From Chloroflexota bacterium (GTDB lineage: Bacteria > Chloroflexota > Dehalococcoidia > UBA2247 > RBG-13-53-26): DNA of 46,031 nucleotides. Below are positions 3,964 to 43,205 of the stretch, one piece after another. The stretch covers positions 1-46,031 of the forward strand of contig JAPLHP010000074.1 of the NCBI GenBank assembly GCA_026389585.1, written 5' to 3'. The notes below the pieces were generated by a model. That model saw nothing but the letters and a program-made list of their open reading frames with translations, was not told the origin of the DNA and searched no databases. Each line of letters begins with the position of its first letter. Within the stretch, counting starts at the first letter, position 1. Position numbers and translations under genes: made by a program.

Positions 3964-4710
3964 GTGCGCATGCTGTTGAGACTAACCTGGGTGGAGATCA
4001 AGCTTTTCGTGCGTGAACCCATCACTATGGTCTTCACCTTCATCCTCCCACTCGTCTTTCTCTTCGTTTTGGGCGGAATTTTCACAAACACTCCGGATTT
4101 AGAGGGTACCGCATGGCGAGGCGTCAGACCCATGGACTTCTACACGCCGGCCTACATTGGTCTGGTCATCGCCTCCATCGGTGTTATTGGACTGCCGGTG
4201 CATCTCACCGGCTACCGTGAGCGGGGAGTGCTGCGCCGGCTCCGCGCTTCCCCCATCCCCCTCTGGAGCATCTTCGGCTCCCAGATGATCGTCAGCTTTA
4301 TGATCGCCATACTTGGCGGTGTCCTTCTCACCATTGTGGCATTGCTCGTTTATGATGTCAGACTTCCAGAGTCACCTGCTCTTGTTATCGCGGCTTTCGT
4401 CCCCAGTATCCTGATGTTTTCCGCTCTGGGTATCCTGCTGGGGGCTATACTGCCAACCACACGGGCAGCACAAGGGCTGGGCCTGATTCTGTTCATTGTG
4501 ATGATGCTTCTTTCAGGGTGCGGGCCGCCTCCAGAGATGATGACCAAAGCCATGCAGTGGGTCGGAGATGCCACACCACTACGCTATGTCGTCGGGCTCC
4601 TACAAGATCCCTGGCTTGGCTTCGGCTGGAATATGCCTTACTTCCTGATTGTTACTGGTATTATGGTAGTGGCGTCATTGCTCTCAGTCCGCTTCTTCCG
4701 CTGGGAGTAA
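3964..4710 (+). CDS. ABC-2 type exporter, permease subunit
   Basis: This 248-residue integral membrane protein has about six hydrophobic segments (e.g. MVFTFILPLVFLFVLGGIF near 20-40, then segments near 60-80, 105-130, 140-160, 170-190 and 220-240). It contains the ABC-2 signature region with RERGVLRRLRASPI, the cytoplasmic coupling helix that contacts the ATPase. The start is GTG at 3964, with an ATG two codons later at 3970 as an alternative. It pairs with the ATPase 9 bases upstream. The phosphofructokinase starts 19 bases after its stop, so the three genes may share a transcript. Confidence 0.9.
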   Translation: MRMLLRLTWVEIKLFVREPITMVFTFILPLVFLFVLGGIFTNTPDLEGTAWRGVRPMDFYTPAYIGLVIASIGVIGLPVHLTGYRERGVLRRLRASPIPLWSIFGSQMIVSFMIAILGGVLLTIVALLVYDVRLPESPALVIAAFVPSILMFSALGILLGAILPTTRAAQGLGLILFIVMMLLSGCGPPPEMMTKAMQWVGDATPLRYVVGLLQDPWLGFGWNMPYFLIVTGIMVVASLLSVRFFRWE

Positions 4711-5935: not shown

Positions 5936-7240
5936 TCATTTGTTTCGCAATATCGACCTTCTCCAATGAAATCTCTCGACTGTGAACCCTTCCGGAGCAC
6001 AAGGAGATAAGGTGGGATTTTGAAACAGAGGCTCTCCTTCTATAGGATAGGGCGAGGCTTTTCGGGCCGTCTCCCATATTCTCGTTCCAGGGACGGGTGA
6101 GAACTCAGACAGGTAAGGCCTGGCTCCAGCTTCCTTAACCTTTCTCATGGACTCTTCAACTTCTTCCCTGGTCTGTCCAGGAAGCCCTGAAAGCAAATAG
6201 ACACCTATTTCAGAACTCCGAAAACCGGCATTCCCCAGAGCTGAAATGGCCTGTAAAAGTTCTTCATAAGATGTCTTACGGTCTATCACCCGCTCGCTAA
6301 CTGATTCGACAGTTTCCAGCCCTAACCTTATTGTCTTGAACCCGGAATTCTTAAGCACCTTAGCTACCTCTGAAGTAATCCCCCTTGTATGGAGCCCATT
6401 GGGAACATGGAATTGAATATCCAGGCCACTCTGGCCAATCTTTTCCATAAGAGGGATAAAATGAGACTGGGTACAGACAAGCAGTGCATCATCATAGAAA
6501 GCTATATCTTTCAGGCCCATGGTCCTGTGCATCCAAAGGAGTTCCTCAAAGCAACCTCCATAGCTCTTCTGTCTGAAACAAGGGCTAAGTACACTGGAAG
6601 CGCAGTAGCTACAATCAAAAGGGCAGCCTTCAGATGTTGCGAGGATGCCATATCCGGGATTGGCTGCCAGATCAATAGCAGGGTGGCAATCCATTACAGG
6701 ATCTTCGCTTTCCTGGACAACTATGGGTACGTAGCGAGCTACCAGTTGAAAGAAATCCCTCCCGACCTTCCCCCGATAAACATGATCAGCACCAGAAAAC
6801 CTCCTTGCATGATCGTGGCATAAGGTAGCATAGATTCCCCCGAGAATAATCGGCGTATCCGGAAGGTGCTCACGCACAATTTCGATGACGCGGAATGCCC
6901 CAGGGTACCAATAGGTCATAATCGCAGTAACAAGAACCACATCCGGTTTGGGAGAAGATCCTAGATCTTGCAGAAAAGCCTGCTCAGAGATTCCATAACG
7001 GCTGTACCTTCTCGGTATACCCTTAAGAGCCTCCGGCTTCGGGATCTCCTGCTTTGCAAAGTGACCTGTTCCATACTTCTTTCCCTTGCTTATGTCCAGG
7101 CAGTCAATGAGAGTTACCTCTACCCCTTTCTCCCTTAGACTTCCGGCGATATACAGAAGTCCCAGCGGTTTGGCCCAAAAATCGAAGGCCGCAAAATCAT
7201 ATATCCACGGATTGATGAGTAACATTCGAGGTACTGCCAC
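5936..7240 (-). CDS. B12-binding domain / radical SAM protein
   Basis: This 434-residue protein has an N-terminal cobalamin-binding Rossmann-like domain (about 1-170; LLYIAGSLREKGVEVTLID, ILGGIYATLCHDHA) and a radical SAM core with SEGCPFDCSYCAS, the CxxxCxxC at Cys206, Cys210 and Cys213 that holds the [4Fe-4S] cluster. GLETV and the later GLPGQTREEVEES are typical core strands. B12-dependent radical SAM enzymes often methylate unactivated carbons or act in lipid and cofactor synthesis; the substrate is unknown. The start is GTG at 7240 after an AAAGG about 9 bases upstream; ATG at 7225 is a possible alternative. It is convergent with pfkA. Confidence 0.88.
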   Translation of the reverse strand: MAVPRMLLINPWIYDFAAFDFWAKPLGLLYIAGSLREKGVEVTLIDCLDISKGKKYGTGHFAKQEIPKPEALKGIPRRYSRYGISEQAFLQDLGSSPKPDVVLVTAIMTYWYPGAFRVIEIVREHLPDTPIILGGIYATLCHDHARRFSGADHVYRGKVGRDFFQLVARYVPIVVQESEDPVMDCHPAIDLAANPGYGILATSEGCPFDCSYCASSVLSPCFRQKSYGGCFEELLWMHRTMGLKDIAFYDDALLVCTQSHFIPLMEKIGQSGLDIQFHVPNGLHTRGITSEVAKVLKNSGFKTIRLGLETVESVSERVIDRKTSYEELLQAISALGNAGFRSSEIGVYLLSGLPGQTREEVEESMRKVKEAGARPYLSEFSPVPGTRIWETARKASPYPIEGEPLFQNPTLSPCAPEGFTVERFHWRRSILRNK

Positions 7241-11392: not shown

Positions 11393-12412
11393 TCAATTCT
11401 CCTTTGCCGAATGGTGCTTGTCATGGCACCAAGTACAAGTGTCAGCACCACCGGCCGGCACAAAAGAGAGCAGCTCTATGGTGCGACTCCATTCCTTGTC
11501 ATTCATGTACAGATTGGTATATGGATCCTGGATTATCCTGAGACCTTCCTGATCGAATGTATTCTTGCCTTTGACTGGCAAGAGATACAGATAGTACTTC
11601 TCCCCATCAAGCATGGATTTCCTCATTTCATTTCGGGTCCACATGAAGCTGTACCTAGAAGGCGAAACTGCTTTTACCTCAATCAGCCTTGGCGTAGCAG
11701 TAGCAGAATCAGCGCACTTCCAGTTGAAGCTCATTATGTCATAGCCAGCGCTCACATCCTTCAGGGCGATATGCTCAATTCGAGACGCTAGGTCTGGGAA
11801 TTGAGATAGTCTTTGTTTTTCATACTCAATAACTTGCAGTTCTGCTGCTCTCCCGATTTCCTCCCTGCGGTTCTGTACGGACTGGAACTGAGCCAACGAC
11901 AGTCCGCGGGTAGAGTGAGCCTCGAGGTACTCCTGAAAAGCATCATAGTCCACCGCATATCTCACTTCAACGGGGTCTGCGTAGAGGAAGTCAAGATCAA
12001 TGAGCAGGTTCCTCAAACCACTGTATTCAAGATTCTGAGAACTGGTCGGGGTGAATTCGTATCGGCCATCTCTAAGCTGGAAATGGGCCAGAAACTCGCG
12101 CACATAGTCGTGAAGGCCAGACTCCCGTCAAAGAAGATGTGTCCGCATGAAAGTCCTTACAACTTCTTCGCGCCTCTGCGACTGCCTCAAGTGAGCCAGG
12201 AGCGCTTCATAGTCTCCTATTGGTACTATCTCGTTGTGCTTCAGCGCAATCAGGTTCAACTCGCGCAGGAACTCGAGTGTCTCTGAGAAGTTCGGCGACT
12301 GCCTGATGTACTTCGCCCTTATGAACTCCATCTCCATGAACGACGAGTCCATAATGGCCTCACATAGGTCCAGTATCTGCTTCGTGGCAACCTTGTCGAA
12401 TCTAAACATCAC
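11393..12412 (-). pseudogene. DUF3883 (NO VEIN-like) PD-(D/E)xK protein with in-frame TGA
   Basis: Two open stretches, 12412-12131 (94 residues) and 12127-11393, lie in one frame separated only by a TGA at 12128-12130. Read through, they give one ~339-residue protein. The N-terminal part is helical and possibly DNA binding. The C-terminal part has GRAAELQVIEYEKQRL, then GYDIMSF, then RLIEVKAVS, the D-x19-E-x-K arrangement of PD-(D/E)xK nucleases typical of DUF3883 domains in restriction and defence proteins. The tail carries CTWCHDKHH. The start (GTG 12412 or ATG 12409) overlaps the helicase stop, so it is coupled to it. A GTG at 12103 could allow the nuclease part to be made alone. The stop may be a nonsense mutation or a sequencing error. 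Confidence 0.75.
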
Positions 12413-14307
12413 TGCCCGCCAAATAGCCGTTTGTATGCCTGTAGTTCATCATCCCCGGCAAACATATCCATAGAGTATATGGCATAGTCATCATCGATCA
12501 GAGAATACATCCTCTTGGCCTTTCTCTCCAAGTTGTCTGCTATGTCTTGCTCAATTGTGTTGCTATACCGCAGGAAGTGATAATTGGCTTGTCTGTGCTC
12601 GGAGCCACCGACACGGTGTATTCTGTCCAAGGACTGTAGATACTGAGCACAGTTGTAGCTGAGATCATAATACACGGCATGGAAACATGTTGTGTGCAGC
12701 GAAATTGACTCGGCACAAGCGGCCGGATTCGCAACCAGAATGTCCAGCCCACTGTCGGTATCCAAGAATTCAGCACGAATTGTCTCCCTTGTCTGTTCTT
12801 CATGAATCGATGTCTGTTCCGTCGGTGTCGCACCATAGATTAGTTTGCAGTAGAAGCCAGCTTCGGTGAGATGCGTGACCAACAGCTTGAGCGTGCCTAT
12901 GAAGTGAGCCCAGATTACCACTTTCTGCTTCTGACTCTGCAATTCCCGCACCAACTGAGTTAGACAGGAAAGCTTGGCAGGCGTTTCCAAAGCATCATAG
13001 TCGCGAATGATCGTACTTAAATCTGGCTCATCGTCAATGAGACTCTCTGAGTACTCCTCCAAAGCAAACGAGAGGAGCTTTGGATATGACACACATTGCC
13101 TCAGTCGGGTGACCCTTCCCCGCCGCAGTCTGTCAATCACGTCTATGTTCTTGAGATAGTCCGCCTTTGAGTAGCGCCTTATCTTGGTTTCTATGGCGTC
13201 ATAGACCTTCCGCTCAAGTATGTTCATAGATAACAGAAGAGGCTCGTGAAATTTCGGGGGCATGAGACCCAGGTCAGACTTCCTTACGCGATACGAGAAT
13301 GGACCGATGTTACTAGTCAACAACTGCCTTGCAGATTGCATATCATCGTTTCGCTCGTAGATCTGTATTCGTTGCTTTGCCTCTTGGTCCAGAGGTGTGT
13401 GGTCTGGCCACAGAAAGTCAAACATGTTAAAGACATCCATGTAGCTTCTGGGAATCGGCGTGCCCGTGAGAACACACCTGAACTTTGCATGTTTGGATAT
13501 ACTCAGTACTGCATCTGCCCACTCGCCACCCAGCTGCTTCATATAGTGAGCCTCGTCTACCACCAAGAATGCATTGACTCCGTTCTGGTCCAGAAACGCT
13601 GCAACTTCGTTGTGATCATTGAGTAGAGTCTGATAAGTTGTGAGATACAGTTCCCCCTTTTGGGAAGCAGGGCGGTAATATTCGCCCAGCCTCTGCCGTT
13701 GTTCACCTCCCGCAAGGATCCTGGTATCCGGCTTGCGGCCGAGTGTGAGAGAGAACTCGCTTCTCCAAGGCCCAAAGCATGCGGGAGGGCCCACCACATA
13801 CAGCATGTTGACTTCGGACTGCATTCTGAGTCTCTCGTATACAGTCAGAACCACCGAGGTCTTGCCACTCCCTGGTACAGAGAAGTTGGCCCCGTTGCGG
13901 ACAAGATAGAGGTGGAATGCTGCTTTCAGCTGATGACTCTTCAGTTTTCTGCAGATGAAGTTGTTGACAAACGATGCAAACTCATCGAACAACGCTTGGT
14001 CAAAAGTGCCCTCTTTGTAGCGTCTTCCTGAGGCTCTTATTGCTTGCCAAGTATCAATGGCCGAGGTTACCTTTGACAGGTAATCCGCGCAGGACGGAGT
14101 CAGAGACTGGGAGACTCCTTCTTTGTCAAAGTATCTTAGGACTTTCAGCAGCACCGTGTCGATCTGATCAGAAGATAGTGTATAGGTGTCGGTTATGGAG
14201 ACGTTTGTGAATCCCCAGAAGCGTATCTGGCTGATCTGGTTGGGCTTGAGCTTTGCCTGAACTGCATGTAGACTCAGGACGCCGTCTTTGAGATCTACCA
14301 CTATCAT
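12409..14307 (-). CDS. SNF2-like superfamily 2 helicase
   Basis: This 632-residue SF2 ATPase has an N-terminal accessory domain (about 1-125), then Walker A FSVPGSGKTS (142-151), motif II VVDEAHYM (249-256), motif III TGTPIPRS (281-288) and a C-terminal RecA domain with VVIWAHF, ILVANPAACAESISLHT (motif V) and LDRIHRVGGSE (motif VI). The motif spellings (PGSGKT, DRIHRxG) fit SNF2/Rad54-like translocases of restriction-type systems. It should use ATP to translocate on or remodel duplex DNA. The start lies 13 bases after the ParB-like stop, and the stop overlaps the DUF3883 gene start, so all three form an operon. Confidence 0.9.
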   Translation of the reverse strand: MIVVDLKDGVLSLHAVQAKLKPNQISQIRFWGFTNVSITDTYTLSSDQIDTVLLKVLRYFDKEGVSQSLTPSCADYLSKVTSAIDTWQAIRASGRRYKEGTFDQALFDEFASFVNNFICRKLKSHQLKAAFHLYLVRNGANFSVPGSGKTSVVLTVYERLRMQSEVNMLYVVGPPACFGPWRSEFSLTLGRKPDTRILAGGEQRQRLGEYYRPASQKGELYLTTYQTLLNDHNEVAAFLDQNGVNAFLVVDEAHYMKQLGGEWADAVLSISKHAKFRCVLTGTPIPRSYMDVFNMFDFLWPDHTPLDQEAKQRIQIYERNDDMQSARQLLTSNIGPFSYRVRKSDLGLMPPKFHEPLLLSMNILERKVYDAIETKIRRYSKADYLKNIDVIDRLRRGRVTRLRQCVSYPKLLSFALEEYSESLIDDEPDLSTIIRDYDALETPAKLSCLTQLVRELQSQKQKVVIWAHFIGTLKLLVTHLTEAGFYCKLIYGATPTEQTSIHEEQTRETIRAEFLDTDSGLDILVANPAACAESISLHTTCFHAVYYDLSYNCAQYLQSLDRIHRVGGSEHRQANYHFLRYSNTIEQDIADNLERKAKRMYSLIDDDYAIYSMDMFAGDDELQAYKRLFGGQ

Positions 14308-14320
14308 CTGTCAACACAAC

Positions 14321-15730
14321 CTAGCTCTTTGGTTTGTGATCCAGTTGCTTGACCACCTTCTGGCACTGGTACAATTCTTTTTCGAGATCAATGGCGCGCT
14401 GTCGGATTTCCACAACAAGTTTTCGAGCCCTGTCCAGGTCATTTGTTGCTAGAGCTTCTGGATCCATGTCCTCGTGATTGAGCTTGCCAAGAGCTGCTTG
14501 AAGGAGAGTCAGTGGAGTCTCCTGGCCTTTCGTGTGTTGGTAGCACTTCTGCGCTTTCTTGACGTGTTTTGTTATCCTAGCAACATGTTTGGCTCCCCAT
14601 ATCTTGTCTATTCTGCGTTCATCGTATTCTTTGCCGTTCTCGTCGAACCTCTCCTCTTTTGTCAAATCCAACTCAACATCTGCTAGCTTGAGGATCTCCC
14701 TCTTTGCATCCTCATTTGCCAGCATCTTTGGCAGATCTCTCATGATCTTGTGGAGCTTAGGCAGGTCCGGCAATTCCCTTCTGCGTATGATCTTGAAGGC
14801 AGCGACTTCAACCTTGCCAACCTCGTCTTCGGCAACACCTAGCTTCACACGTTTCTTGTCATCCTCGAGTTTCTGATAGACAAAAGTGTAGTAGTCTAAG
14901 AATGCCTGCCAACGGCCTTCCGGATCACCCAGGCCTGTAGATACGGTGCTGTATAGTCCATTTCTGCCAAGTTGCTCCAAGTATCGGTCAACACACTCCA
15001 GTGGTTTGAGGTACTCCTTTTCAACTTTCTGGACTTCCTCCCTGAACTTCTTGTCGTTCAAACCTGCATAGATCGGGTCATCCCTCAGTTGTTGCTCTAG
15101 TGACATCCCGAAGGCAATCTTCCGACGCATTGAAAGGGCTCTGTCGAATGCATAGTACTCGGCCTTCGCTTCGCTCTGGAGCTGGTAGCGGTTCTCGATC
15201 TGCTCGATCTCCAACAGGGTAGGTGGTCCACCTTCACCCTCTGCATCCTTACCAGGAAGTATGACCACTCTCATGTCCTGGAATCTCGGATCTGCTGGAT
15301 GCTTCTTGCGAAGGATCTTGAGAGCCATCAATCTCCGATTGCCATTTATAAGAAACCCATCGGAGGTTATGATAGCCGCTTCTCTCTGGCCCTCGTATTC
15401 CATCGAGCTGAGCAATTCCTCCGTCTTTTCTTTGTCTTTCTCCTTGAGAAAACCCTCAATCAAATGCTGAGCTGTGGCACTCGTTTCGACGAGCAATCCG
15501 TGTGCCTTTTGATAATTCAAAACATCCGACGAGATTCGCCCGTTGTCCTTCCTGTAGCGAAGTAGGTCAATCGGCACGTAGTAGATATCTCGCTCCTTTC
15601 CGTCTCTACGGTCCGTTCTGAAGTCAATCACATCCTTTGCGGGCTTCGGACCTTGCCTTTTCTTTGCCTGAATTTCTGCCGCGAAATCAGTGATTATTTC
15701 TCTGGGAATGGGCATGGTTAGCTTGTTCAT
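14321..15730 (-). CDS. ParB/sulfiredoxin-fold protein
   Basis: This 469-residue protein has a ParB-like N-terminal nuclease/CTPase-fold domain: YYVPIDLLRYRKDN (50-63) and IITSDGFLINGNRRLMALK (120-138), whose NGNRRL is the characteristic loop of the ParB/Srx superfamily. The remainder is long, charged and helical with likely coiled coil near the C-terminus (about 430-465). In defence loci such proteins may sense, nick or mark DNA; here the activity is unknown. The start at 15730 is well supported by GGAGG 6 bases upstream. It is the first gene of the minus-strand operon and is divergent from the methyltransferase. Confidence 0.8.
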   Translation of the reverse strand: MNKLTMPIPREIITDFAAEIQAKKRQGPKPAKDVIDFRTDRRDGKERDIYYVPIDLLRYRKDNGRISSDVLNYQKAHGLLVETSATAQHLIEGFLKEKDKEKTEELLSSMEYEGQREAAIITSDGFLINGNRRLMALKILRKKHPADPRFQDMRVVILPGKDAEGEGGPPTLLEIEQIENRYQLQSEAKAEYYAFDRALSMRRKIAFGMSLEQQLRDDPIYAGLNDKKFREEVQKVEKEYLKPLECVDRYLEQLGRNGLYSTVSTGLGDPEGRWQAFLDYYTFVYQKLEDDKKRVKLGVAEDEVGKVEVAAFKIIRRRELPDLPKLHKIMRDLPKMLANEDAKREILKLADVELDLTKEERFDENGKEYDERRIDKIWGAKHVARITKHVKKAQKCYQHTKGQETPLTLLQAALGKLNHEDMDPEALATNDLDRARKLVVEIRQRAIDLEKELYQCQKVVKQLDHKPKS

Positions 15731-16044: not shown

Positions 16045-16872
16045 ATGCTCGAACTTGACAAGATCTATCAAGGTGACTGCCTCGAAATACTTAGGACGCT
16101 TCCTGATGCTTCCTTTGACCTGATCTTCACATCCCCGCCTTACGCTCACAATCGAAGGTCAACTTACCAAGGAGTTGCCATGACTCGCTATGTCGAATGG
16201 TTTGTTCCAATATCGTTGGAGCTTAAGCGCGTTCTCAAGCCTGATGGCTCATTCGTCTTGAACATCAAAGAGCGCGCAGTCAATGGGGAACGTCAAACAT
16301 ACGTGCTGGAGTTAATCCTGGCCATGAAAGGCCAAGATTGGCTTTGGACTGAAGAGTATATCTGGCACAAGAAGAACTGCTATCCTGGTCGATGGCCCAA
16401 TAGATTCAGGGATGCCTGGGAGCGTTGTCTGCATTTCACCAAGCAGAAGCGTTTCAAAATGCACCAAGAAGCTGTGATGGTACCTATAGGGAGCTGGGCT
16501 GAGAAGCGATTGCCGCGGTTAACCAATGTAGATCGTATCAGAGACGAATCACGTGTTGGCAGCGGTTTTGGCAAGAATGTGTCCAATTGGCTGGGCAGGG
16601 ATAACGTATACCCAACAAATGTGCTCCATCTTGCCACTGAGTGCTCCAACAGAGGACATAGTGCGTCGTTTCCCGCGACTCTGCCGACTTGGTTTATCAA
16701 GCTTTTCACTCGCGAAGGAGAGTTAGTTCTTGATCCATTCATCGGATCAGGGACGACTGCAATGGCCTGCATCAACCTGCGAAGACACTACGTTGGAATC
16801 GAATATATGCAAAGCTACTATGCCCTAGCGGTCAAGGCAACCGAAAAGGCAAAGAACGGGGGCCAACGGTAG
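16045..16872 (+). CDS. Beta-class DNA methyltransferase (N4-cytosine or N6-adenine)
   Basis: This 275-residue enzyme has catalytic motif IV FTSPPYA (28-34) before the SAM-binding motif I LDPFIGSGTTAM (229-240), the motif order of beta-class amino-methyltransferases. S-P-P-Y is most common among N4-cytosine enzymes but also occurs in N6-adenine enzymes, so the base is uncertain. A target-recognition region is expected near 110-200, between the motifs. It starts at ATG 16045 without a strong ribosome binding site. Its divergent partner operon of ParB-like protein, helicase and nuclease suggests it protects host DNA from that module, as in restriction-modification and DISARM-like systems. Confidence 0.92.
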   Translation: MLELDKIYQGDCLEILRTLPDASFDLIFTSPPYAHNRRSTYQGVAMTRYVEWFVPISLELKRVLKPDGSFVLNIKERAVNGERQTYVLELILAMKGQDWLWTEEYIWHKKNCYPGRWPNRFRDAWERCLHFTKQKRFKMHQEAVMVPIGSWAEKRLPRLTNVDRIRDESRVGSGFGKNVSNWLGRDNVYPTNVLHLATECSNRGHSASFPATLPTWFIKLFTREGELVLDPFIGSGTTAMACINLRRHYVGIEYMQSYYALAVKATEKAKNGGQR

Positions 16873-22634: not shown

Positions 22635-22750
22635 ATGGAGTTCTTCGTAGCAATTCTTGCATTTCTGTCTATTCCACTGGGTTCGGCTCGATGCTGTATC
22701 TGTTCATCATCGAGGCCACCTCAGATAACAATGAGTCCGATGTGGCCTGA
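22635..22750 (+). pseudogene. Possible small membrane protein, apparently frameshifted
   Basis: After GAAGGTGATAAGGG, ATG 22635 opens a hydrophobic frame MEFFVAILAFLSIPLG. A shift of one base near 22682 would continue as SMLYLFIIEATSDNN and stop at TGA 22748, giving a ~38-residue single-pass membrane peptide with an acidic tail. Both halves look coherent, so a one-base error or mutation is more likely than chance, but such a short frame cannot be proven. It follows ileS by 35 bases. Confidence 0.3.
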
Positions 22751-40187: not shown

Positions 40188-40424
40188 ATGGAACAGAGAT
40201 GCTGTGTCTGCAGCGAACCGCTGGACAGTGACAATGTCTCCCGGTGTAACCTCTGCGGTGGGGACTTCCACATGGCCTGGTCAACCAGGGTCAGCGTGAA
40301 GGAATGCGGACACTACCGGGTCAATAAGCAGCAATGCGGGCTCGCCTTTATCTGCAGCCGTTGTGAGGAAGGACTCCAGCCTGCCAGGGAGAATCAATCA
40401 CCCAACCACTTGACTACTTCATGA
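40188..40424 (+). CDS. Small zinc-ribbon protein
   Basis: This 78-residue protein has CCVCSEPLD, CNLCGGDFH, CGHYR and CSRCEEG: several CxxC pairs and a histidine, consistent with two zinc knuckles. It starts one base after the cca stop, so it is co-translated. Its last 31 bases overlap the 3' end of the convergent dinG gene. Function unknown; partner of an RNA-processing enzyme by position. Confidence 0.7.
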   Translation: MEQRCCVCSEPLDSDNVSRCNLCGGDFHMAWSTRVSVKECGHYRVNKQQCGLAFICSRCEEGLQPARENQSPNHLTTS

Positions 40425-42250
40425 GGCATGTGCCGCAGCAATCCGCTTTTCATAGTGCACCTGGGTAAGGAGTTCAGAAAGACCCTGCCATAAGGCTTTG
40501 TCTGCAAACGCCGATCCAGGACAACCACTACCCCGCGGTCGCTCCAGCTACGGATAAGACGGCCAAAACCCTGTTTGAACTTGAGTATCGCCTGGGGAAC
40601 CATATATTGATTGAAGGGATTATCAAACAGCTCGGCACGGGCAGAAAAGATGGGATCATTGGGAACGCCGAAGGGCAAGCGGGCTATCACCAGAACACTC
40701 AGCGCTTTCCCCACCACATCAACCCCCTCCCAGAAGGCAGCCGTGCCCATCAGCAAGGACTGCGGATTATCCTTGAACCTACCCAGAAGCTTCTTGGGAC
40801 TGCCGTCAATCCCCTGCCCCAGAACCAGAATGCCTTCTTCATCAAGAGTAGGCTGGATAGCACTGTAACAATTACGAAGGGCAGCATGAGAGGTAAACAG
40901 AACCAGGGTGCGACCCCGTGTCGCCCGGCAGAGTTCCACCAGCGATTCCGCCACCCCCCGCTGGTAGCCAGGCTTCTCCGGCTCCGGGATATCCTGAGGG
41001 AGATAGATCATAGTGGACTTCACATAATCAAAGGGGGGATCTATTGCCAGCTCACCAGCCTCTCCCAACCCCAGAGAGCCTTTGATATACTCAAAGCTGC
41101 CATCGATGCTCAGGGTAGCGCTGGTCAGTACAACACAGTCCTTCTTGGAGAACAAGGATTCCTCCAATACCCGCCCCACATGCAATGGGGCAGCATTCAG
41201 ACATAGACCTCCCGACACCTTGAGGGAAGCCCAATAAATATCATGCGGCTCCGGTTTGGCTATGATGGAGTCTGCCTGAAGCCGTAACCCGCGGACCTGC
41301 TGCCGCGTGAAGGATATCTCTGCCAGCGAACTGTTCAAGTCCGGATTTCTCCTATCGGGCAAGTCCTCCATCATGGCGTAGAGTTCACTTAAGCCGGTCT
41401 CGATACTCCCAAGATCAAAATCAAGATTCTCCCAGGATAGCTCTACTTCCGCCCACGCCGGCTGACGGCGGAGTTCTCCAGTAATCTTCAGGCGCCGCTC
41501 ATAGTCCCCGGCTTCTTCAGGATGGTGAAAATTCAGGAAATGAGTCAAAACATCAAAAAGCTCAGCCACCCGGGTACGGGCCATCTTGCCTTTGCCCTGC
41601 AGGCCTTCAACCTTGTTCCCTACTTCCTTTCGCCTCGATGAAGCTACCGAGGTGGTACGCAGATAAGTGCGGAGTTGAAACAGAAACCCTCCCCTGTCGC
41701 CAAACCGGTCCAGGCACTCATAGAGGTCTTGATCAGAAATCTGGAACCCCAGTTGCTCAGTGGCCTCTTCCTCCAGGTGATGCGCTTCGTCAATGATCAA
41801 ACAACTGTATTCGGGTAATATTCCCCCCTTCACCAGGTCAGACAGCAGGAGGGCATGATTAACCACTATCAGATGAGCCCCTTCCGTCCTCTGCCTGCCC
41901 CGGTAAAGGAAACAACCGTCCGGATAGTGCGGGCAACGCTCAGCAACACAGTTTTCTTCCGAGGCACAAATCCTGCTCCACAGGGCGGATTCACTTAAAT
42001 TGAGGTTGATCTCGGCGCGATCACCGCTGGGTGTTGAGTAAATCCAGAGCAAAAGGCGAAGCAGAAATCTGGCCTCTTCCCACGCTAATCCGGGGGTCTT
42101 GCGCCAGGAGTGCCATCGCCTGAGGCAGAGGTAATTACTGCGGCCCTTGAGCAGGGCTACCTGAAGGTTGGAGTTCACCTCCCCATCCACGGCCTTGACC
42201 AGAGCCTGGAGCAAATCGGGGATGTCTTTATTCATTAGCTGTTCCTGGAG
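40394..42250 (-). CDS. dinG: DinG-like helicase, C-terminal part (broken by artefact)
   Basis: This is the downstream 618 residues of a DinG/XPD-type helicase. After LQEQLMNKDIP it has four cysteines in CASEENCVAERCPHYPDGC, the iron-sulfur site of XPD-like enzymes, then LIIDEAHHLEEEA (motif II), LVLFTSHAALR, and GFGRLIRSWSDRG with DRR (motif VI). The frame upstream of 42250 is nonsense out of phase. Joined to the 42273-43205 part it would give ~935 residues, close to B. subtilis DinG (931). It unwinds DNA with 5'-3' polarity in repair. The gene is almost certainly intact in the organism; the break coincides with adapter sequence. Confidence 0.88.
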   Translation of the reverse strand, partial: LQEQLMNKDIPDLLQALVKAVDGEVNSNLQVALLKGRSNYLCLRRWHSWRKTPGLAWEEARFLLRLLLWIYSTPSGDRAEINLNLSESALWSRICASEENCVAERCPHYPDGCFLYRGRQRTEGAHLIVVNHALLLSDLVKGGILPEYSCLIIDEAHHLEEEATEQLGFQISDQDLYECLDRFGDRGGFLFQLRTYLRTTSVASSRRKEVGNKVEGLQGKGKMARTRVAELFDVLTHFLNFHHPEEAGDYERRLKITGELRRQPAWAEVELSWENLDFDLGSIETGLSELYAMMEDLPDRRNPDLNSSLAEISFTRQQVRGLRLQADSIIAKPEPHDIYWASLKVSGGLCLNAAPLHVGRVLEESLFSKKDCVVLTSATLSIDGSFEYIKGSLGLGEAGELAIDPPFDYVKSTMIYLPQDIPEPEKPGYQRGVAESLVELCRATRGRTLVLFTSHAALRNCYSAIQPTLDEEGILVLGQGIDGSPKKLLGRFKDNPQSLLMGTAAFWEGVDVVGKALSVLVIARLPFGVPNDPIFSARAELFDNPFNQYMVPQAILKFKQGFGRLIRSWSDRGVVVVLDRRLQTKPYGRVFLNSLPRCTMKSGLLRHMPHEVVKWLGD

Positions 42251-43205
42251 ATAAGAGCGTCGTGTAGGGAAAAATGACCACAGGGCTATTGTTGTCCAGC
42301 GCAAAGAAGATCGCCGGCAGCAGATAGGCAACGGACTTACCAATGCCAGTGCCTGCTTCTACGACAAGGTGCTGCCCGTTGTTCAAGGCTTTGGCCACTT
42401 CCTGCATCATGGAGACCTGACCCGGACGGTACTCAAAGCCCGGGAAAGCCTCTGCCAGCGGACCCCCTTCGCTTAGAAAAGCGGTCAGCCGGTCCAGGTC
42501 CAGCGGTTTGAGGACGCTGTCAGGTACCAGTGGTTTCCTCTCCGGCAGATCCAGGGCCTGCGGGTTGAAGTCCGCTACCCAGGACTCTCTGTCCCACAGG
42601 GAAACTTCACCTACTTTGCTCCTCTCCAGGTCCAGGAATATGGAGCGCCACGGCCAGTTGGCAGCCATGGTCAGGCGATTGATCTCCGCAACCAGAGGGA
42701 GGTCCAGTTGAGAAGCCTTATCCAACAGCGACAGGAACACCTCTTTGCCCATCACAGCATCGGCCAGGGCACGGTGCTGCACAGGGTAAGGCCTCTCCAG
42801 TTGCTTGGCCAATGCGATCAGACTGTAGTCCGTGAGCTGGGGGAGAAGGATGTTCGCCACATCGAGAATATCAAAGGTCGTGTTGGAGAAGCTCAGCCCT
42901 TGAGCACGAAGGAAGTTCAGGTCAAACTGGATACTCTGCCCTACAATGGGACAGTCTCCGATAAAAGAGAGCAGCCCATCCGATACTGCTGGAAAGGAAG
43001 GGGCGGGTTCCAGTTCCTCCGCGGTAATGCCCGTGAGCAGACGGATGCGGTAGGGAAGCGGGCACTGAGGATTGACCATGGTGTGGAAGATCTCCAGCAC
43101 CTTCTCACCCTTAAACTTGACCGCACCTATCTCAATGATGCGGTCCTTTTCCGGATCAAGCCCGGTAGTCTCCAGGTCGAGCGAGACACATGTCTGGCTA
43201 ATCAT
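42228..43205 (-). CDS. dinG: DinG-like protein, DEDD exonuclease and first helicase motifs (broken by artefact)
   Basis: This is the upstream part of the same gene. It begins with a DnaQ-like exonuclease: SLDLETTGLD (about 8-17), GITAEEL, GQSIQFDLNFL and HRALADAVMG. Then comes helicase Walker A VVEAGTGIGKSVAYLLPAI. Homology ends at PVVI (codon 42275-42273), after which the reading enters the adapter-derived FPYTTLLSPGTANE and stops. The exonuclease-helicase fusion is the Bacillus DinG form. The start is ATG 43205. It lies downstream of the DedA-like gene on the minus strand. Confidence 0.88.
   Translation of the reverse strand: MISQTCVSLDLETTGLDPEKDRIIEIGAVKFKGEKVLEIFHTMVNPQCPLPYRIRLLTGITAEELEPAPSFPAVSDGLLSFIGDCPIVGQSIQFDLNFLRAQGLSFSNTTFDILDVANILLPQLTDYSLIALAKQLERPYPVQHRALADAVMGKEVFLSLLDKASQLDLPLVAEINRLTMAANWPWRSIFLDLERSKVGEVSLWDRESWVADFNPQALDLPERKPLVPDSVLKPLDLDRLTAFLSEGGPLAEAFPGFEYRPGQVSMMQEVAKALNNGQHLVVEAGTGIGKSVAYLLPAIFFALDNNSPVVIFPYTTLLSPGTANE
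42249..42272 (-). other. Illumina adapter sequence embedded in dinG
   Basis: AAGAGCGTCGTGTAGGGAAA at 42253-42272 is identical to part of the reverse complement of the TruSeq universal adapter / read-1 primer, and the AGAT just before it (42249-42252) also matches the adapter once CGG is missing. It lies in helicase motif Ia of dinG. Around 22 bases sit where six codons (18 bases) are expected, giving the +1 shift that splits the gene. Confidence 0.93.

Follow-up and report, generated by a model that had tools for sequence, protein, structure and literature searches.

According to Moeller et al. (2024, PMC11536531), more than 1000 reference assemblies out of 15,657 are contaminated with adapter; they give the TruSeq universal/P5 adapter as CGTCGTGTAGGGAAAGAGTGT and also describe the clustering of adapter at contig ends in published databases. 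The gene affected in the present case encodes DinG. In DinG proteins of the S. aureus/B. subtilis type, an N-terminal 3'-5' exonuclease of the RNase T type is fused to an XPD-like helicase; the S. aureus protein was reported to be without an Fe-S cluster (PMC12345164). The window analysed here is an entire contig (C74, 46,031 bases) of a draft genome of 103 contigs and 1.93 Mb, estimated to be 95% complete.

dinG and the adapter sequence within it

On the minus strand of the window, dinG is split into two ORFs. Its 5' part (42273..43205) encodes a DEDD/RNase T exonuclease (PF00929 at 1e-27) and the start of helicase motor 1 (a partial DEAD match) with the Walker A sequence EAGTGIGKS, while its 3' part (40394..42248) encodes the remainder of motor 1, with Fe-S-type cysteines and DEAH, and motor 2 (Helicase_C_2; PF13307 at 2.4e-42, plus PF06733). 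Motif VI, QGFGRLIR, is located in this downstream ORF, for which the best match among solved structures is PDB 8zef, "3'-5' exonuclease DinG".

Between the two parts, positions 42253..42272 (plus strand) read AAGAGCGTCGTGTAGGGAAA, which is identical (20/20) to the reverse complement of the Illumina TruSeq universal/P5 adapter; in other words, this scrap is the reverse complement of TTTCCCTACACGACGCTCTT, within an adapter that we take to read ...CTCTTTCCCTACACGACGCTCTTCCGATCT. About 3e-6 matches of 20 nt to this adapter are expected by chance in the window, and adapter matches in its 100 second-order Markov copies reached 15 nt at most. The 20-mer is the sole copy both in the window and in the 1.93 Mb assembly, where a search with a shifted core revealed no second copy even at up to 3 mismatches. 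A panel of 12 adapters compared with the window gave a next longest match of only 11 nt, and no TruSeq index, Nextera, 454, PacBio or Nanopore adapter was detected elsewhere in it above chance length. A chance match was considered as well and was ruled out by the Markov copies and by the genome-wide uniqueness of the 20-mer. At the level of sequence identity, we regard the scrap as established adapter.

The scrap lies where the frame of dinG changes: the N-terminal ORF (42228-43205, minus) ends shortly past it; the C-terminal frame, which is open from 40394 to 42343 (minus), picks up again at CTCCAGGAACAG (LQEQ). Each of the 25 relatives with sequence at the site has exactly six codons (18 nt) between VV(I) and LQEQ; they encode helicase motif Ia, mostly STNTIN, and the adapter 20-mer is absent from this place. 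The window has 22 nt instead, 20 of them adapter, so that the frame of dinG is off by four bases. None of the relatives searched belongs to the same genus and could serve for a direct comparison. An earlier note on this DNA had described a 20-base exact adapter match, situated exactly at the frame change, with 22 bases in place of six codons, and our analysis bears out all three statements. It had further counted four more matching bases across a missing CGG. AGAT is indeed present at 42249..42252 (plus strand), and it may be the start of the adapter with CGG deleted, or native dinG sequence. A native Asn codon AAT would yield ...CCTGGAGAT... at 42249-42252, and AAT precedes CTCCAG or CTTCAG in several relatives; since such a codon gives identical letters, AGAT is weak evidence that should not be added to the 20-base match, and its value had been overstated.

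Origin of the break

An adapter scrap gives this DNA-repair gene of the ordinary kind the look of a broken one, so the disruption is almost certainly of laboratory and not of biological origin. We estimate the probability that the split of dinG arose in assembly, by a fragment of the TruSeq/P5 adapter being built into the contig, at roughly 0.96. The earlier note had likewise called the frameshift an artefact, and this agrees with a 20-mer that is unique and far beyond chance and that replaces the universally conserved motif Ia in an otherwise intact, syntenic dinG. Accepting this origin, 20-22 foreign bases would replace about 16-18 native bases encoding motif Ia, and the four added bases would create a false frameshift, by which a single gene (about 940 codons) comes to appear as two ORFs. 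Most likely, reads from short inserts ran on into the adapter, so that a contig stopped at this thinly covered place, and its adapter-tailed end was then connected with the following contig by overlap or gap filling. The scrap is without the AGATCGGAAGAG seed on which trimmers and screens rely, and hence probably escaped trimming: the trimmer would have removed the seeded scraps, and the seedless remnant would have survived to serve as overlap or gap filler. No AGATCGGAAGAGC was found in the genome at up to 1 mismatch; this is what one would predict had the reads been trimmed on the seed and had only the seedless scrap survived. The position of the scrap, 3.76 kb inside the contig, and its truncation at both sides are atypical and speak against an assembly artefact, but an internal, doubly cut scrap fits the joining of adapter-tailed contig ends. 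At the right-hand junction we found no microhomology that would neatly explain the join.

It could be argued that the adapter marks a false join of two organisms or strains, making the contig chimeric at 42250. Most likely a gap in coverage was bridged when the two sides were joined, and the tetranucleotide distance of the right arm is slightly larger, at 0.204 versus 0.12-0.17 nearby, measured against a reference stretch that includes those nearby pieces. However, the halves of dinG fit together, with just 16-18 nt replaced, and they are similarly close to their relatives: identities are 50-68% for the 5' part and 53-69% for the 3' part overall, 61-68% and 60-69%, respectively, in four genomes of the same family, and 50-53% across both parts in one genome of the same order. 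Gene order across the site also matches relatives, with ksgA, ispE, the VTT gene, dinG and the genes beyond arranged in the same way in two of them (G001 and G004), and the final 3.76 kb of the contig hold the expected genes, namely ksgA, ispE and the VTT gene. By these comparisons the flanks of dinG are orthologous and syntenic on both sides. The similar identity of the two halves and the conserved gene order indicate that the contig is probably joined correctly at the site, merely with 16-18 native bases swapped for adapter, and we consider a chimera very improbable.

A real pseudogene, frameshifted in the chromosome by a natural insertion-deletion and resembling the adapter by coincidence, is more improbable still. 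Real pseudogenes do occur in draft genomes, and the window contains two more disrupted reading frames, at 12128 and 22682, but this explanation has to accept the chance match of about 3e-6. Besides, no stop interrupts the 617 and 311 codons on either side, the helicase motifs examined are kept and the protein aligns with its relatives over the full length, in keeping with the claim of the earlier note that the rest of dinG is continuous; on these grounds there is no sign of relaxed selection on the gene. That the exonuclease domain lies on one side of the break and most of the helicase on the other might also suggest a programmed or tolerated frameshift that makes the two activities as separate proteins. 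We give this virtually no credence, as the inserted bases are adapter and not a slippery site, motif Ia is destroyed within motor domain 1 and not at a domain boundary, and in the relatives with full coverage dinG is a single ORF of about 930-1060 aa.

Further breaks in the window

The break at 12128-12130 is an in-frame TGA without a change of frame in a NOV_C/DUF3883 gene (11393-14307, minus), while that at about 22682 is a one-base deletion in a small membrane ORF of 38 aa (22635-22750, plus), as judged against its intact paralogue. Neither site has adapter sequence. The suspicion of the earlier note that these breaks, too, might be technical thus finds no shared signature, given that adapter is absent and the types of lesion differ. 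The adapter artefact does not explain them, and they could stem from true mutations or from base errors.

The intact paralogue of the 38-aa ORF is found in the same genome (C34:7321-7434) and is 68% identical; a search of 20 relatives gave no clear homologue of the ORF. The NOV_C/DUF3883 gene had a match, a distant one, in just one relative out of 40. Its neighbours, among the loci grouped with it at 14321-15730 (minus) and 16045-16872 (plus), are a SNF2-type helicase (best PADLOC match ZorD, 2e-23), a 469-aa protein with no family match and a type II-like methyltransferase. Judging by its gene content, this group looks like a phage-defence module.

Comparison with other assemblies and with known DinG

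Among 393 genomes of the class, the 20-mer was found in three, including the present one. Both others are plainly contaminated: the seven copies whose sequence was read are whole adapters (AGATCGG...) that run out at the end of the contig within 23 nt, while the remaining five are located at contig positions 19-42. Whole-adapter copies number 127 in the viral contigs fetched, with a median of 11 nt to the contig end; all lie within 301 nt of it except two, which adjoin the opposite end. The CGG-less form of the adapter was not found in the genome contigs or the viral contigs. Only one case in the genome contigs has non-adapter bases on either side of the core; it lies at base 120 (L172:120-141), near the start of a contig from a Rhodobacteraceae MAG, and as about 0.26 such matches are estimated to occur by chance in the whole collection, it may be a chance match or another scrap. 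Three IMG/VR viral contigs contain whole adapters followed by more sequence, either a second adapter or poly-A, and show that contigs can continue beyond an adapter: L144 at about 6411-6437 (in the last 440 bases, where the minus-strand reading starts), L117 at about 14339-14365 and L110 at 4159-4185.

The scrap in dinG is not a real feature of the gene but a scientifically ordinary technical artefact, and the split should not be taken as gene loss or as a split-gene architecture. Internal adapter scraps without a seed pass seed-based contamination tests, the published one included, and create false pseudogenes. Searching assemblies for the adapter core AAGAGCGTCGTGTAGGGAAA besides the AGATCGGAAGAG seed would catch such cases. 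The use of the finding is limited to the correction of the annotation and to a reminder about seed-based adapter screens.

In the contamination described by Moeller et al. (PMC11536531), as here, the P5-side adapter (CGTCGTGTAGGGAAA...) was built into a draft assembly. The published cases and those scanned by us lie at contig ends and start with AGATCGGAAGAG, whereas the present scrap lies inside C74 and is cut on both sides, CGG being missing before the core and the GAGTGT of the adapter absent after it. The full seed and the contig-end location, which are typical of such contamination but not required, are thus both lacking, and the published seed test would miss a scrap that is internal, seedless and doubly cut. 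As to the gene itself, the order of domains and motifs is that of the exonuclease-fused DinG, with an RNase T/DEDD exonuclease followed by an XPD-like helicase that has Walker A, DEAH and motif VI; a single reading frame with motif Ia is missing in the window, lost at the adapter scrap only. In contrast to S. aureus DinG, the four Fe-S-type cysteines are apparently retained in the present lineage, and the sole other difference from the exonuclease-fused DinG is the artefactual frameshift.
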